Assembly: GCA_030836185.1 (NCBI GenBank)
Contig: JAURQH010000058.1
Location: 1-39,962, forward strand
Length of the DNA stretch: 39,962 nt
Reading direction: 5' to 3'
Source of the DNA: Planctomycetota bacterium
GTDB taxonomy: Bacteria > Planctomycetota > Planctomycetia > Planctomycetales > Planctomycetaceae
Position numbers and translations under genes: made by a program
In this document: in pieces, positions 1 through 4,189 of the stretch
Layout of the letters: every line of letters begins with the position of its first letter
How positions within the stretch are numbered: position 1 is the stretch's first letter
The notes under the pieces: generated by a model
What the model was told of the DNA's origin: nothing
Database searches by the model: none
What the model saw: only the letters and a program-made list of their open reading frames with translations

Positions 1-139
1 AGTGGAACGCACCTTCGCCTGGTTGAAGTATCTGCGGCGATTGGGGATGCGTTGGGAGTATCATGCTTTTTTGTTTGAAGGGTTCTGGCAACTCGGCTGC
101 GTGTTCACTATTCTCAAAGGGTTATAGGACAAGCTCTAA
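1..139 (+). mobile_element. right end of an IS5-family insertion sequence
   Basis: This is the terminal part of the element carrying the transposase tail. The stop codon is followed by TAGGACAAGCTCTAA, which read outward-in on the other strand gives TTAGAGCTTGTCCTA and looks like an IS427-group terminal inverted repeat. The boundary at about 136-139 is inferred, with TAA as a possible TNA-type target duplication. The left end is outside the window, so the repeat pair cannot be compared. Confidence 0.55.
2..127 (+). CDS. IS5-type transposase, C-terminal 41 residues (5' end outside the window)
   Basis: The reading frame is open from the window edge to a TAG stop at 125-127. It carries the VERTFAWL...RRLGMRWE signature that closes the DDE domain of IS5-family transposases, where the E of VERTF is the last catalytic acid. 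The remaining residues (HAFLFEGFWQLGCVFTILKG) fit the usual hydrophobic C-terminal helix of the family. Only the tail is visible, so it cannot be told whether the full copy is intact. The stop lies about ten bases before the inferred element end, which is normal for compact IS5 elements. Confidence 0.85.
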   Translation: MERTFAWLKYLRRLGMRWEYHAFLFEGFWQLGCVFTILKGL

Positions 140-676
140 TCCACCGGCTACTCCCGGCTTTGTGAATACAATATCTGTCGATACACTCTCGATCTCATTC
201 GGAATGGAGATGAATTTGGTTCGTGTGTAGTTTGGGAGAAGTAAACCAAGCACGCTGCCAACTAAGACTTCATAGAAAGTCCCAGGAGTTTTTCTCGCTC
301 CAGGATTCCATAAATCGTAACAGATTGAGAATGCAGTGATCGAGGAATAGAGCAACCGATTGATGTCGCCAGCATTCATGCTTGATGTATGAGCCGTCCC
401 GTCAAGAGATTGAGTGAAACTTCCCCACAAGTCGTTGAATACTTCTATATCTTCGATGTAAAGGGACGAAAGGAATGGGCGGGAAAGGCGATTGTTCGCC
501 GTAAATACGGAGTAGTTCTTTGCGCCGATATTGTCGATGTGGCGAGAGGTTGCACGGGTAGCAAGCTGTTGGATTGCCTCTTCTGATACTCTGCGAAGTT
601 GTTCTGCTGGAGCTCCGCCACCATCATAATTGGCTTTTGCCAAATCATGCATACTTTTGATTTTAGTGACGCTCAT
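122..676 (-). pseudogene. truncated PD-(D/E)XK-like restriction endonuclease, cut by the IS element
   Basis: The frame opens with ATG at 676 behind a good ribosome site (AGGGGAAATC) and runs leftward until it enters the insertion-sequence end. The last four to five residues (LELVL) and the TAA stop are encoded by the element. Residues 128-180 contain GTFYEVLVGSVLG, then STDIVFTKPG. This order of Glu helix, hydrophobic segment and Asp-I-V-F strand resembles the start of a PD-(D/E)XK nuclease core. The next strand, which should hold the (D/E)xK pair, is exactly what is missing. The product would therefore be inactive. The endonuclease reading is an inference from this partial pattern; truncation by the element is the firmer part. 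No methyltransferase is visible on this side. Confidence 0.5.
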
Positions 677-833: not shown

Positions 834-1946
834 TTACAACAGCTTCAGGACGCGGTCGGTGAGTCCTTGTTCGCCGAGGACAACATTCAGATGCCCCGTA
901 GCAGCGATCTTTTCCAGGACTTCCAGTTCCTTCAGTCGCATCAACACGGGGTTGTTGTCGAGCAACTTCGCCGTGTTGGCTTGCGACCGCATTGCTGCCG
1001 TTTCTTCGCGTCGCGAAATCAGGTTGGCTTCTGCCTCCTTCTTCGCTTCCGTCACGCGGTTCATCAGGTCCTTCATATCGCCCGGCAGGATCACATCGCG
1101 AATACCGAGTGAATCGACCTTCAAGCCGAGTTCTTCGACTCGCGAACGAACCAGGTTTGACAATTCTTGGACGACGTCTTCCTTGTCGCTCAAAAACTGA
1201 TCCAGTTCTCGACTGCCGATCACAGCTCGCAACGCCAATTGGACCTCGCGGTACAATGCCTGCGACGCCGATTCGCTGGCTGTGACTGCCCGGTGCGCAT
1301 CGACCATCGAGTATGTCACGACCGCGTTGAGACGCAGTGAGACCTTGTCGGCTGTCATGATGTCCTGACCGGCGACATCGAGCAATTGCTCGCGCAGATC
1401 GACTTCCACAACCTTGGCAGTCGCTTCGCCCTTCCAGAACGCATAACGTCCTGAAGAGAGTGTTTCGATAAAACGCCCGTCAACGAACAACACACCTGCG
1501 TGGTTGCGTTCAACGGTGCAGATATCGAGGACGACGGCTGCCTTTGGCCAGTAATCGTGCAGGATCAAATCCTGATGGTCAAACCGAGGATTACGAGCAT
1601 CGATCACTTCGACACGGACAGTCTTCAGGTCGTTCCACCAAGCGTACAGTCCGGGTGTCAGGAATCGATCAAATCGACCGTCGATCCAGACGAGTGCTCG
1701 CTGATGATCCTTCAGGTCGACAAAGTCGATTTGAGAATCGAGCAGCCCCGACTTGACCATCAGGTCGAGCTGTTCGTCGATTAACCAAGGGTCGCGACGG
1801 TTACGGATTCGCAATTCACGACGACGCAGCGGATCGAAGATCCAGTGCCGTCCCGCATTGAGAACGCGAACGAGATCGCCATCCTTGAAAAGCAGTCCGG
1901 TTTCAAACGAACGAATGAGATAACGCTTTAACATCTTCAACATCAT
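834..1946 (-). CDS. slipin family SPFH/band 7 protein
   Basis: The 370-residue protein has a prohibitin-homology (SPFH/band 7) domain at about residues 150-290, followed by an Ala/Glu-rich coiled coil (EAKKEAEANLISRREETAAM) at about 298-345. Slipins form ring-like scaffolds on the inner face of membranes and help protease or transport complexes. Unusually, there is no clear hydrophobic hairpin at the N-terminus. The first 140 residues are instead a soluble region with repeated GxFxxFLxPGLYAxW-type strands, so membrane contact may be peripheral. A strong ribosome site (AAAGGAGGTG) sits 3 nt before the ATG at 1946 and 6 nt before a second ATG at 1943, so the second Met is the better start. It is followed directly by a terminator and looks monocistronic. 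Confidence 0.85.
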   Translation of the reverse strand: MMLKMLKRYLIRSFETGLLFKDGDLVRVLNAGRHWIFDPLRRRELRIRNRRDPWLIDEQLDLMVKSGLLDSQIDFVDLKDHQRALVWIDGRFDRFLTPGLYAWWNDLKTVRVEVIDARNPRFDHQDLILHDYWPKAAVVLDICTVERNHAGVLFVDGRFIETLSSGRYAFWKGEATAKVVEVDLREQLLDVAGQDIMTADKVSLRLNAVVTYSMVDAHRAVTASESASQALYREVQLALRAVIGSRELDQFLSDKEDVVQELSNLVRSRVEELGLKVDSLGIRDVILPGDMKDLMNRVTEAKKEAEANLISRREETAAMRSQANTAKLLDNNPVLMRLKELEVLEKIAATGHLNVVLGEQGLTDRVLKLL

Positions 1947-2586
1947 GCACCTCCTTTTGGTGCGTACTACGGGCTGTTCACCGATATGGTTGACCTGATA
2001 ACTATGACGATCCTACCGATGAGCTTTTCTTGCCGATGAGCTTTTCTTGGAATCGTTTTCGTCAGTGATTTCGGGTGGCGGTGGATGACCATCAGGTCAC
2101 CCACAGATCGCTTGATTCTGAGGGCATCGCTTCGCTCCGACCACCAGCCACACATCTTGTCTTTCGGTCTTGTCAAAAAATATATTGATGCTCTTCCTCA
2201 GAAGAGTTGTGTTATGAAGCCTTTGGAAAACGGAGCGAATGTTGATCACACGTTGTCGAACGGAGTTCATTTAAGTCGGCGAGGTCATCGAGTCGGCACG
2301 AATTTCTCTTCAGTTCAACAGAAGACTCTTGTCTCGCTGCGTCATTTCAGAGTTGTTCGTTCCTTGTCGAATTCATCACCGACGGCATCCACGAACTACA
2401 AAGTTCATTTCTGTGCTGCCAGACCTCATGATGCAGCGTCATCTCCAGTACGAGTCGTCTTGCGACGACAACATCTGGTGAGTCGAAATGCAGTCATTGA
2501 GGTTGGCCGATCAAACAATCGACCGTCTTCCTCCGGCTTTGCGGAGATTCTGTCGAACCTCGGTGGTGGACGATTTCCCAATCGCC
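1947..2586. other. 640-bp stretch without a convincing gene
   Basis: It holds the promoter side of the slipin gene, a short tandem duplication at 2016-2049 and the flank of the tRNA-like gene. A 181-codon frame at 2085-2630 (+) runs into the tRNA-like sequence, has Arg/Ser-rich composition and shows no domain, so it is not called. Confidence 0.5.
2016..2049. repeat. perfect 17-bp tandem duplication
   Basis: CCGATGAGCTTTTCTTG occurs twice head to tail (2016-2032 and 2033-2049) with no mismatch. It lies upstream of the slipin gene and is probably a recent slippage duplication. Confidence 0.9.
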
Positions 2587-2662
2587 TGGTCTTGTGGACG
2601 GGAGTCGAACCCGTAACTTTCAGTCCTTAAAACTGATGCTCTACCTGTTGAGCTACCACAGA
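2587..2662 (-). tRNA. atypical tRNA, anticodon UAA (Leu-like codon, short variable loop)
   Basis: On the minus strand a 76-nt cloverleaf can be drawn. It has a 4-bp D stem (GCTC/GAGC) with loop AACAGGTA, a 5-bp anticodon stem (TCAGT/ACTGA), loop TTTAAGG, a 5-nt variable loop, a 5-bp T stem (ACGGG/CCCGT) with loop TTCGACT, and an encoded 3' ACCA. The anticodon at positions 34-36 is UAA, which reads the Leu codon UUA. Bacterial tRNA-Leu should have a long variable arm, and this one does not. The acceptor stem has a U1-G72 wobble and a C2/A71 mismatch. It may be a diverged tRNA, a tRNA pseudogene or one with altered identity. The fold is seen directly; the amino acid is uncertain. Confidence 0.65.
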
Positions 2663-2772
2663 TACCGATGAATGTTTTCGAAACTGTTTACGGGACACGG
2701 TTGGCAACAATCATTGGCGTTCCGTGCCGCCAGCATCATTCATCAGTCTGTTTCAAGATGTGCTCGTCTATG

Positions 2773-2803
2773 AAAAAACCCGGTATCGTTTCCGACGCCG
2801 GGT
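2773..2803 (-). terminator. rho-independent terminator downstream of the XylR-like gene
   Basis: ACCCGG (2778-2783) pairs with CCGGGT (2798-2803), with an inner TCG/CGA pairing and a small internal loop. On the minus strand the hairpin is followed by TTTTTT. It lies about 200 nt beyond the regulator's stop and before the tRNA-like gene, so it separates the two. Confidence 0.75.
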
Positions 2804-3001
2804 GGTGTGTTTGTTGGAATCACACAACCTCAGCACGGGGTTTCTCTGCTGGGAAGCAGATTGAAGCCATTGGCATTCAATGAAAAATGAGACATGATTT
2901 GGTCCTCAAACGATTTTTGTTGGGTCTTGGTTTTGTACTGGGAGAGAAGACGCCAGATCGTTCAGAGAGGTTCGCAGATTTTCAAAATGAAGCTGAAAGA
3001 A

Positions 3002-4189
3002 TTATGAAGTGTGTGCGTATTGATTGCGATAAGAGTTGGGAGTCATGCCGGCTGCTTTGCGAAAGAACTCGCTGAAACTGGCGGCGTGCGACATGCCGAC
3101 GAGATGGGCGATTCGTTCGAGTGTGAAGTTGGTTGTTTGCAATAATTCACAAGCACGCTTAAAGCGAACTTCACGAATTTCTTCGCTGACTGTTTTTTGG
3201 GTTCGTTCTTTAAATTCAATTTGAAAGGTTCTCAGCGGAATGCGAACATGATCGGCGACATCGGAAACACGGATTCCTTCACAGGCATGCAATCTGATGT
3301 ATTCGCGCGCCCGGTCAATATCTGTGACCGGCGCACGTTGCTGACCGATGGTCGATTCACGGATCGAGATTTTTTCAGCAGGGACTTCGACAATTTTTCG
3401 TCCGAGTTTTTTTCCTTCAATGAGACGCATCAACAAACGCGTGGACTCGTATCCGATTTGGAGGTTGGGGGGATGGATACTGGTCAGCGGAATGGAATGA
3501 AGTCGCGAGGTTTCCGAATCATCCACACCAATGAGTTCAATGTCACCGGGAACGATATATCCCAGTTTTTGAATCGCCTTCAAAGTTGCCAATGCATATT
3601 GATCGTTCAAGGTCACGATTGCGGCTGACTTCGGCAGGTTTCTCAGTAACGCGAGAAGCGCTGCTTCAGGTTCCATTGATTCTGCAAGTTCTGAATGAGA
3701 GATGGCCAAAGCCACGTTCATTTCGTAGGAGTCAAAATGAATCCCCTGCTGTTTGCAGAAAGCTGCAAGTGCATCGCGACGATGGTGCGAACCATCTGAT
3801 CCTTGATATCCGACAAAGCCGACATTTCGTCGTCCTAAAGTACTGATATGCTGAATTGCCAAACGTGCGAGGGACTCGCCATCGGTATAAACGCTGGGGA
3901 GCCCGCTGTCGGCGAGATCGCCACACACCATGACGACGGGGACTTTGCCTCTCTCCAACCAGCCAACAATTCCCTCGGATTTTCCGACGCTGGCTATGAT
4001 GCCGTCCACCCGATTTTTCCAAGGAGGGGTCGACGTGAAGAAGTCTTCTGTCTCATGGTCTGCGTCGGATTCGAAGAGAAAGTCACTCAACTGAATTCCG
4101 CTATGCTCATCAACGTACTGAAGAACTCCTTCAATAACACGGTGTGAGCGAAGTCCTGTTCGATCAAGATAAAGTCCGACGGTGGTCAT
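3002..4189 (-). CDS. XylR-family regulator (periplasmic-binding-like sensor + AraC HTH)
   Basis: The 395-residue protein joins a LacI/GalR-type ligand-binding domain (about residues 1-275) to an AraC-type double helix-turn-helix (about 288-392). The sensor is marked by MTTVGLYLDRTG, VDGIIASVGKSEG, GRRNVGFVGYQGSDGSHHRRD and ELIGVDDSETSR. The AraC part is marked by IRVSDVADHVRIPLRTFQIEF and FTLERIAHLVGMSHAASFSEFFRKAAGMTPNSYR. This order is that of the E. coli xylose regulator XylR, which binds a sugar and activates transcription. No sugar kinase, isomerase or transporter lies beside it, so its ligand and targets are unknown. The start at 4189 opens directly into the first beta strand of the sensor, as in the family. 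Confidence 0.88.
   Translation of the reverse strand: MTTVGLYLDRTGLRSHRVIEGVLQYVDEHSGIQLSDFLFESDADHETEDFFTSTPPWKNRVDGIIASVGKSEGIVGWLERGKVPVVMVCGDLADSGLPSVYTDGESLARLAIQHISTLGRRNVGFVGYQGSDGSHHRRDALAAFCKQQGIHFDSYEMNVALAISHSELAESMEPEAALLALLRNLPKSAAIVTLNDQYALATLKAIQKLGYIVPGDIELIGVDDSETSRLHSIPLTSIHPPNLQIGYESTRLLMRLIEGKKLGRKIVEVPAEKISIRESTIGQQRAPVTDIDRAREYIRLHACEGIRVSDVADHVRIPLRTFQIEFKERTQKTVSEEIREVRFKRACELLQTTNFTLERIAHLVGMSHAASFSEFFRKAAGMTPNSYRNQYAHTS

Follow-up and report, generated by a model that had tools for sequence, protein, structure and literature searches.

The window analysed here, a 39,962-nucleotide stretch of one contig from a Planctomycetota bacterium (JAURQH010000058.1), contains on its minus strand a tRNA-like element followed by a gene for an SPFH-family membrane protein. 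At 2587-2662 ARAGORN reports the sole tRNA of the window, on the minus strand and with anticodon taa, and the Rfam tRNA model RF00005 matches 2662-2590 with 58.2 bits, above the gathering score of 29. A preliminary description of this DNA, which gave no strand, had noted a UAA anticodon, four arms, a five-base variable loop, a U1-G72 pair, a C2/A71 mismatch and a CCA end, all of which hold as judged by ARAGORN and by direct reading. The acceptor strands, UCUGUGG and CCACAAG, form five standard pairs besides these two weak distal positions; the D, anticodon and T stems are all perfectly paired, the anticodon loop is UUUAAGG, the 5-nt variable loop is AAGUU, and position 72 is followed by ACCA. 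Is such a gene required to read UUA? The source genome (107 contigs, 47 tRNA matches) carries elsewhere an ordinary long-arm tRNA-Leu(TAA), an 86-nt match at G000:C16:20135-20220, whose possible presence the preliminary description had raised. Thus the window copy is unnecessary for reading this codon.

The SPFH / band-7 gene lies downstream of the RNA at 834-1946 (minus strand), encodes 370 amino acids and matches Pfam PF01145 with an E-value of 4.9e-29; against NCBIfam the protein gives HflK matches only, far under cut-off, and PADLOC returns no match for it. Further downstream, at 122-676 (minus strand), is a match to a type II restriction enzyme (PADLOC PDLC03502). Upstream of the element, at 3002-4189 (minus strand), lies a regulator with LacI-type and AraC-type parts, and the genus neighbour G001 has a gene resembling it at the equivalent place, judged by its start. 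A terminator-like hairpin also precedes the element at 2772-2802 (minus strand; CCCGG...CCGGG followed by TTTTTT, direct reading); it is missing from the terminator scan, whose length limit its loop exceeds. As a similar hairpin stands upstream of the element in G001, the RNA would need its own promoter in both. A scan for sigma-70-type promoters on the minus strand of 1900-3100 gave no site. No recurring neighbour of the SPFH gene was noticed by eye in eight relatives whose genes were compared by length and start.

Homologues are widespread among Planctomycetota, and in them the tRNA-like sequence belongs to a composite RNA, in which a covarying 5' hairpin domain is followed by the tRNA-like domain and then by about 370 bases with further structure. 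The apparent tRNA is therefore one domain of a longer RNA, beyond what the preliminary description could see. The 5' hairpin domain, at 2664-2748 (minus strand), consists of an outer stem, a CUG/CAG stem, an internal loop and an apical stem. The internal loop, GGC / GUCCCGUA in the window and mostly CGGC / GUUCCGUG in relatives, is conserved, and the outer closure is CCA/UGG, CCG/CGG, CCC/GGG or CUG/CAG. On the 3' side of the tRNA-like domain a small hairpin at 2568-2586 (minus strand; GGCGAUU...AAUCGUCC) was read directly and not scored separately; a hairpin at this place is present by eye in many relatives and is part of the consensus fold of 11 of them. The 3' domain, at 2220-2540 (minus strand), carries the conserved blocks AAAGCCGGAGGAAGACGG (2540-2523), TTTGTAGTTCGTGGATGCCG (2402-2383), GACTTAAATGAACTCCG (2277-2261) and GTGTGATC (2251-2244). 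Given that conserved blocks reach about 2220, the RNA would be about 530 nt long, running on the minus strand from about 2748 to 2220. A weak candidate for its 3' end lies at 2172-2207 (minus strand), where the hairpin CTCTTCTGAGGAAGAG is followed 7-8 bases later by a T-run; the scan lists this stem on the plus strand only, and the minus-strand T-run is a direct reading.

The proposed structure is borne out by covariation. The covariance model R1, built from 38 elements, scores 124 bits against window 2591-2748, the window copy being among the 38 sequences. Alignment A1 comprises 38 of the 49 parsed loci, the 11 awkward ones being omitted (L077, L086, L087, L089, L102-L105, L113, L115 and L116); over the 5' and tRNA-like domains it offers 45 pairs, 34 of them with changes on both sides, and a covariation score of 0.524 as against 0.200 in shuffled and at most 0.158 in slid alignments, for a structure drawn from A1 itself. 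In A4, made of 72 named loci, fitted to the model and containing the same or overlapping sequences, the score is 0.467 versus 0.178 shuffled and at most 0.121 slid, with 93.2% of cells paired. The 5' domain contributes 27 tested pairs in A1 and A4, with both-side changes in 24 and 24, and the tRNA-like domain 18 pairs in the tests on 38 and on 72 sequences. For the 3' domain a long closing arm of 20 tested pairs in A5 scores 0.296 (0.162 shuffled, at most 0.101 slid), and its number of further pair types is equalled by 11 of 500 shuffles; the 18 sequences of A5 were picked by hand for likeness from 115 and come from 17 genomes (L088 and L230 share one), the window copy not included, and nine of them are also in the 11-sequence subset from which the arm was drawn. 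Aligning the 3' region of 74 sequences about a single block yielded no consensus structure; the subsets of 11 and 18 gave one. The search of related genomes suggested by the preliminary description thus finds fold and flanks conserved with compensatory changes, which is more than chance.

When 59 genomes were searched at the DNA level, 21 had matches, of which one, from the same genus, was close (G001, 86% identity); many of the other weak matches are ordinary tRNAs by their calls. Matches with the element have flanks conserved both upstream and downstream, and the open frame downstream in relatives resembles the SPFH gene of the window. Searching 148 genomes of the class with the SPFH protein yields 76 matching genomes at E up to 1e-20, of which the 52 with E below 1e-100 were used as having an orthologue. 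Fifty of these are the loci L067-L116, and the remaining two, G050 and G046, had already been seen with the element as L013 and L014. An nhmmer profile of seven elements finds an upstream match in 49 of the 50 loci, three of the 50 being seeds; in the fiftieth, from G088, the element stands about 2.9 kb upstream of the gene (148 bits). In L102, L103 and L113 no single nhmmer match spans the 5' domain and the tRNA-like part, and L104 and L105 give two separate matches each. L102-L105 come from four genomes of one genus (f5/g39) and hold an extra tRNA-like sequence between the 5' domain and the tRNA-like domain.

R1 was then applied to 392 genomes from the phylum. Ordinary tRNAs also score with this model, so every genome matches; short matches reach 82 bits, and only full-length matches of at least 92 bits were counted. 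At this threshold, of 40 same-class genomes, those with a full SPFH orthologue have the element in 17 of 19 cases, and among those lacking the orthologue it is found in 0 of 21, with a best score of 74.2; since 15 of the 17 positives helped to build R1, the independent part of this comparison is the 0 of 21 together with G019 and G088. Three of the 21 (G005, G034 and G061) hold an SPFH fragment or a distant match, and five were counted negative from their absence in the match rows, taking two samples of 148 genomes as the same. The two misses, G040 and G068, have matches of 73.4 and 72.1 bits at the SPFH locus, with two tandem tRNA-like domains. In G005 the last 67 SPFH residues alone remain (G005:C1:4162201-4162416, 81% identity) and the element was not found, which may reflect a joint loss of gene and RNA. 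Outside the class 13 matches (L147-L159) score 92.6-106 bits, and by eye an SPFH start lies within 1.5 kb downstream in 11 of them, none being seen within 1.5 kb of L155 and L156.

Likewise, among the best 80 of 518 named relatives of the SPFH protein, R1 places the element upstream and on the same strand in 72 loci; the distance to the gene is at most 1 kb in 66 of these (median 466 nt) and 1.4-2.9 kb in the other six. Eight of the 80 have no R1 match at E 0.01; five of these have less than 300 nt of upstream DNA, and in L176, L179 and L233 the gene and upstream DNA are present. Eight of the 72 named elements are identical to one of the 49 parsed, five of those being in R1, and L187 is the G088 locus. 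The titles of the 80 name Planctomycetota or a subgroup, with two exceptions: L177 is called 'bacterium', and L244 'Rhodothermales', which may be a mislabelled bin. Candidatus Kuenenia, the title of L191, is a planctomycete. Three contigs catalogued as viral in IMG/VR encode the SPFH protein, with the element upstream in two (L254 and L255) and no upstream DNA in the third. As the search models include the tRNA-like part, copies that do not have it would be missed.

The element often follows a tRNA array. Among 107 distinct loci with at least 250 nt of upstream sequence, 62 have a same-strand tRNA within 160 nt upstream and 45, among them the window, have none; the tRNA near the element is tRNA-Cys(GCA) in 46 of the 62, Arg(GCG) in seven, Trp in seven, Glu in one and one called SeC in another. 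Within the region examined in G128, 26 tRNA genes stand ahead of the element, and the largest upstream count among the loci is 32. The window and G001 have no tRNA array beside the element. Elsewhere in the source genome (contig C7, L043 463-632, outside the window) two low-scoring tRNAs, a short-armed Leu(CAG) and a Lys(CTT), stand behind a tRNA-Glu and resemble what a degenerate tRNA array would leave behind. Association with RtcB was uninformative, the protein being near-universal (140 of 148 genomes).

Is the anticodon of this domain still under selection? In 113 distinct loci, 104 have 7-nt anticodon loops, which show 36 anticodons with A34 in 36 of the 104, and the other nine have loops of 5, 6, 8 or 81 nt. 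The 49 parsed copies (7-nt loop in 45, 23 anticodons, A34 in 16) and the 72 named loci (7-nt loop in 65, 30 anticodons, A34 in 20, the others with 5, 6, 8 or 81 nt) give the same kind of picture. A34 is rare among bacterial tRNAs. The 81-nt loop occurs in one element (L195 3199-3434), at a position like that of an intron. The copy of the genus neighbour G001 has the anticodon UGA, and weaker DNA matches with similar flanks have AGG, UAG, CUG, AUU and GAA. One genus, represented by 17 genomes, yields 10 matches; leaving aside the single ordinary tRNA among these, seven distinct loops are found in nine elements. The frame of the loop is conserved, U33 being found in 37 of 45 parsed and 46 of 65 named copies and A38 in 41 of 45 and 52 of 65.

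We compared the rate of these changes with that of the neighbouring gene in 217 locus pairs, binned by the fourfold-site divergence of the downstream gene (the SPFH gene being taken as the longest downstream frame) and excluding seven duplicate loci, loops other than 7 nt and pairs below 70% protein identity; the pairs share sequences and are not independent. Over four bins, anticodon divergence is 0.28, 0.65, 0.69 and 0.70, fourfold-site divergence 0.21, 0.41, 0.53 and 0.65, and divergence in the rest of the domain 0.02, 0.10, 0.14 and 0.16. Outside the anticodon the domain therefore changes far more slowly than the fourfold-degenerate sites. Acceptor positions 1-3 differ about as much as the anticodon (0.71 and 0.60 versus 0.67). 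When the locus pairs above 82% identity were listed, using 109 of 121 loci, one pair differed in all three anticodon bases despite 98% identity in the rest of this RNA part, and several close pairs shared one anticodon. An internal pairing partner for bases 34-36 was sought within the RNA, and pairing reaches 18% of sequences at the best site; windows including bases 32-33 pair with conserved columns in up to 51% of sequences, which we attribute to the conservation of C32 and U33.

The remainder of the domain combines a firm core with a loose end. In the 49 parsed copies (for L102-L105 the second of the two domains was used) the T-loop TTCRANY is found in 49 and the D-loop GG in 48, and pairing in the D, anticodon and T stems is 99-100% complete in 72 sequences, with covariation. 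Acceptor pairs 5, 6 and 7 are present in 49, 48 and 48 of the 49 copies, pair 6 being nearly invariant, and pair 4 in 39 versus 18.9 in shuffles. Pairs 1-3 occur in 19, 19 and 22 copies against shuffled values of 18.7, 19.5 and 15.6 (sd 3.1, 3.1 and 2.5); thus pairs 1 and 2 are at the shuffle level and pair 3 is slightly higher. NCCA follows in 11 of 49 parsed relatives, so that an encoded CCA is not general, yet is more frequent than chance would give for three bases (1 in 64). L149 and L150, from another class, have a complete 7-bp acceptor stem with a G3-U70 pair. This pair is an alanine identity element.

Taken together, the conserved fold, the scrambled anticodon and the negative results lead us to conclude, with considerable confidence, that the feature is not a decoding tRNA but the tRNA-mimic domain of a conserved, structured non-coding RNA about 530 nt long. 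An anticodon that is free to change is not that of a normal tRNA and would not be read by the ribosome. Of the three options put forward in the preliminary description, a tRNA used for another task is the one that survives. A tRNA of changed identity does not agree with 36 anticodons in 104 loci, A34 in 36 of them and odd loop sizes in nine more, nor with acceptor pairs 1-2 at the shuffle level and pair 3 slightly above it. A decaying copy is at odds with covarying stems that are 99-100% paired in 72 sequences and with a slow-changing remainder of the domain. Degenerate tRNA clusters containing partly degraded tRNAs have been reported in planctomycetes (PMC4807772), and the element could be a pseudogene left by such a cluster; compensatory stem changes in the domain and its flanks across many genomes make this origin barely credible. 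That a non-standard tRNA still delivers an amino acid also seems highly improbable. The tools score the domain as a good tRNA. NCCA is present in 11 of 49 copies and some out-of-class copies have the complete acceptor, so some copies may be aminoacylated; against this stand the turnover of the anticodon, A34, the odd loop sizes and the weak pairing of the distal acceptor.

What, then, is the mimic for? In its plainest form our explanation has the tRNA elbow bind a protein, PNPase-like as for YrlA, with the anticodon arm as a free spacer. The near-invariant elbow signatures, the lack of constraint on both distal acceptor and anticodon, and the precedent of YrlA, whose tRNA-like domain binds PNPase (PMC8394870), argue for docking of this kind, and the retained U33 and A38 and the mostly 7-nt loop suggest more than a free spacer; we consider docking alone a serious candidate that falls somewhat short of probable. 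The loop might also be a target for anticodon nucleases, whether from phages, from competitors or among the toxins of the cell itself, and its cleavage would spare real tRNAs or report damage, the scrambled anticodons being the mark of an arms race. Such a bait or sensor is compatible with the tRNA-mimic explanation and accords with an anticodon that differs at least as much as fourfold sites (0.65 versus 0.41 in the 33 pairs with fourfold divergence of 0.30-0.45, the rest of the domain 0.10), with the nearly identical pair that differs in the whole anticodon, with seven loops among nine elements of one genus, with the retained loop frame and with the missing internal partner; tRNA arrays in mycobacteria are, moreover, considered a putative antidefense system (PMC12803027). 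An anticodon that is simply unconstrained explains the data almost equally well, however, for acceptor positions 1-3 are similarly divergent and the pairs are not independent. In the six closest pairs the anticodon is just above the fourfold sites (0.28 versus 0.21), several close pairs share an anticodon, and the SPFH protein is without a PADLOC match. We therefore hold the bait to be possible but on the unlikely side.

A role in cis, as an attenuator-like leader in the SPFH mRNA that senses through the tRNA-like part, is suggested by the position of the element, upstream and on the same strand in 72 of the best 80 named loci, by its being found with the gene, and by terminator-like sites between the two in 11 of 49 loci as compared with 3.7% of mononucleotide shuffles. 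In the remaining 38 loci, the source genome among them, the scan lists no such site, the gene lies 1.4-2.9 kb away in G088 and five other named loci, and by our reading the size and the 3' domain resemble a stand-alone RNA more; a leader is accordingly doubtful. Docking and bait both fit and do not exclude each other, and a leader can hold with either. Joining several of these ideas, one may picture a new class of large non-coding RNA, in which a freely varying anticodon serves as bait or damage sensor for anticodon-cutting nucleases; the RNA, a tRNA array acting as backup and a membrane scaffold of SPFH protein would form one translational-stress or defence system across Planctomycetota. This broader picture is speculative, and we offer it tentatively.

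Returning to the tRNA-mimic explanation, the RNA is most likely tied to the tRNA-array/SPFH locus, given that the element lies upstream of the SPFH gene on the same strand, that the two occur together across genomes and that a tRNA array often precedes the element. We envisage that the RNA is transcribed, in arrays probably together with the tRNAs and freed from them by tRNA processing, that it is not aminoacylated, that its elbow docks a tRNA-binding protein and that it would serve the locus during stress on translation; the mechanism, including any role as bait, is inferred. Nature has in effect run an experiment here, preserving the tRNA fold while releasing it from decoding, and the element links widespread, unexplained tRNA arrays to a specific RNA and a specific, deletable membrane-protein gene. 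Because ARAGORN and Rfam call these elements tRNAs, with the isotype set by the local anticodon, planctomycete tRNA inventories likely hold a false entry.

Among known RNAs, bacterial tRNA-Leu(UAA) shares with the domain its anticodon and cloverleaf and differs in having a long variable arm (class II, as against 5 nt here), a firm acceptor and an anticodon conserved among orthologues. The 7-bp acceptor stem of an elongator tRNA is absent here, L149 and L150 excepted, and the loss of stem constraint that goes with a tRNA pseudogene is not seen. In tmRNA the tRNA-like domain has no anticodon arm and is split by the coding part, whereas the window domain is a contiguous cloverleaf with an anticodon arm, and ARAGORN reports no tmRNA in the window. 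Of other Rfam families only tRNA is found at gathering, weak matches below threshold being taken as chance. The Rhodopirellula-1 motif appears in a 2010 list of 104 candidate RNAs, in Proteobacteria and Planctomycetes, and its line in the table, as we read the columns, marks it as likely cis-regulatory and gives no Rfam accession (PMC2864571). The excerpted text of PMC11109978 makes no mention of planctomycetes, slipin or SPFH, and among the open-licence literature we found no paper on this RNA.

YrlA, or bacterial Y RNA (RF02553), is also a tRNA mimic, and its binding partners are Ro and PNPase (PMC8394870). Like the element it is non-coding and has a non-decoding tRNA-like domain that keeps the D and T loops; the element differs in the long 3' region and the SPFH gene that come after its tRNA-like core. 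At E 1e-3 the YrlA model has no match in the source genome; at this E-value it matches 8 of 40 genomes, one of them (G012) over cut-off, and 7 of 14 controls below cut-off. In G008, G040, G049 and G050 YrlA-like matches below cut-off stand beside TROVE (Ro) genes and away from the element. The source genome gives no TROVE match; TROVE is present in 43 of 148 class genomes, 19 of the 52 with an SPFH orthologue and 24 of the 96 others, taking two samples as the same. GOLLD and ROOL are likewise large structured RNAs near tRNA islands, and in GOLLD tRNAs sometimes lie in the linker (PMC12286853, PMC6582537); unlike these, the RNA described here has the tRNA-like part as a constant component and an SPFH gene as its partner. 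Neither family has an Rfam match at gathering in the whole window, L011 or six relatives, nor in the six relatives at E up to 1 (13 same-clan overlapping matches were left out) or in window 2400-2900 at E up to 5. As for the locus as a whole, a single repressor, relieved by translational stress, controls a tRNA operon, rtcB and a slipin-family gene in Anabaena (PMC10272220). Unlike the arrangement described here, the Anabaena tRNA operon sits on a plasmid, apart from the slipin gene, which is chromosomal and has another locus name; there as here, a tRNA array is joined with a gene of the SPFH family (PMC10272220).
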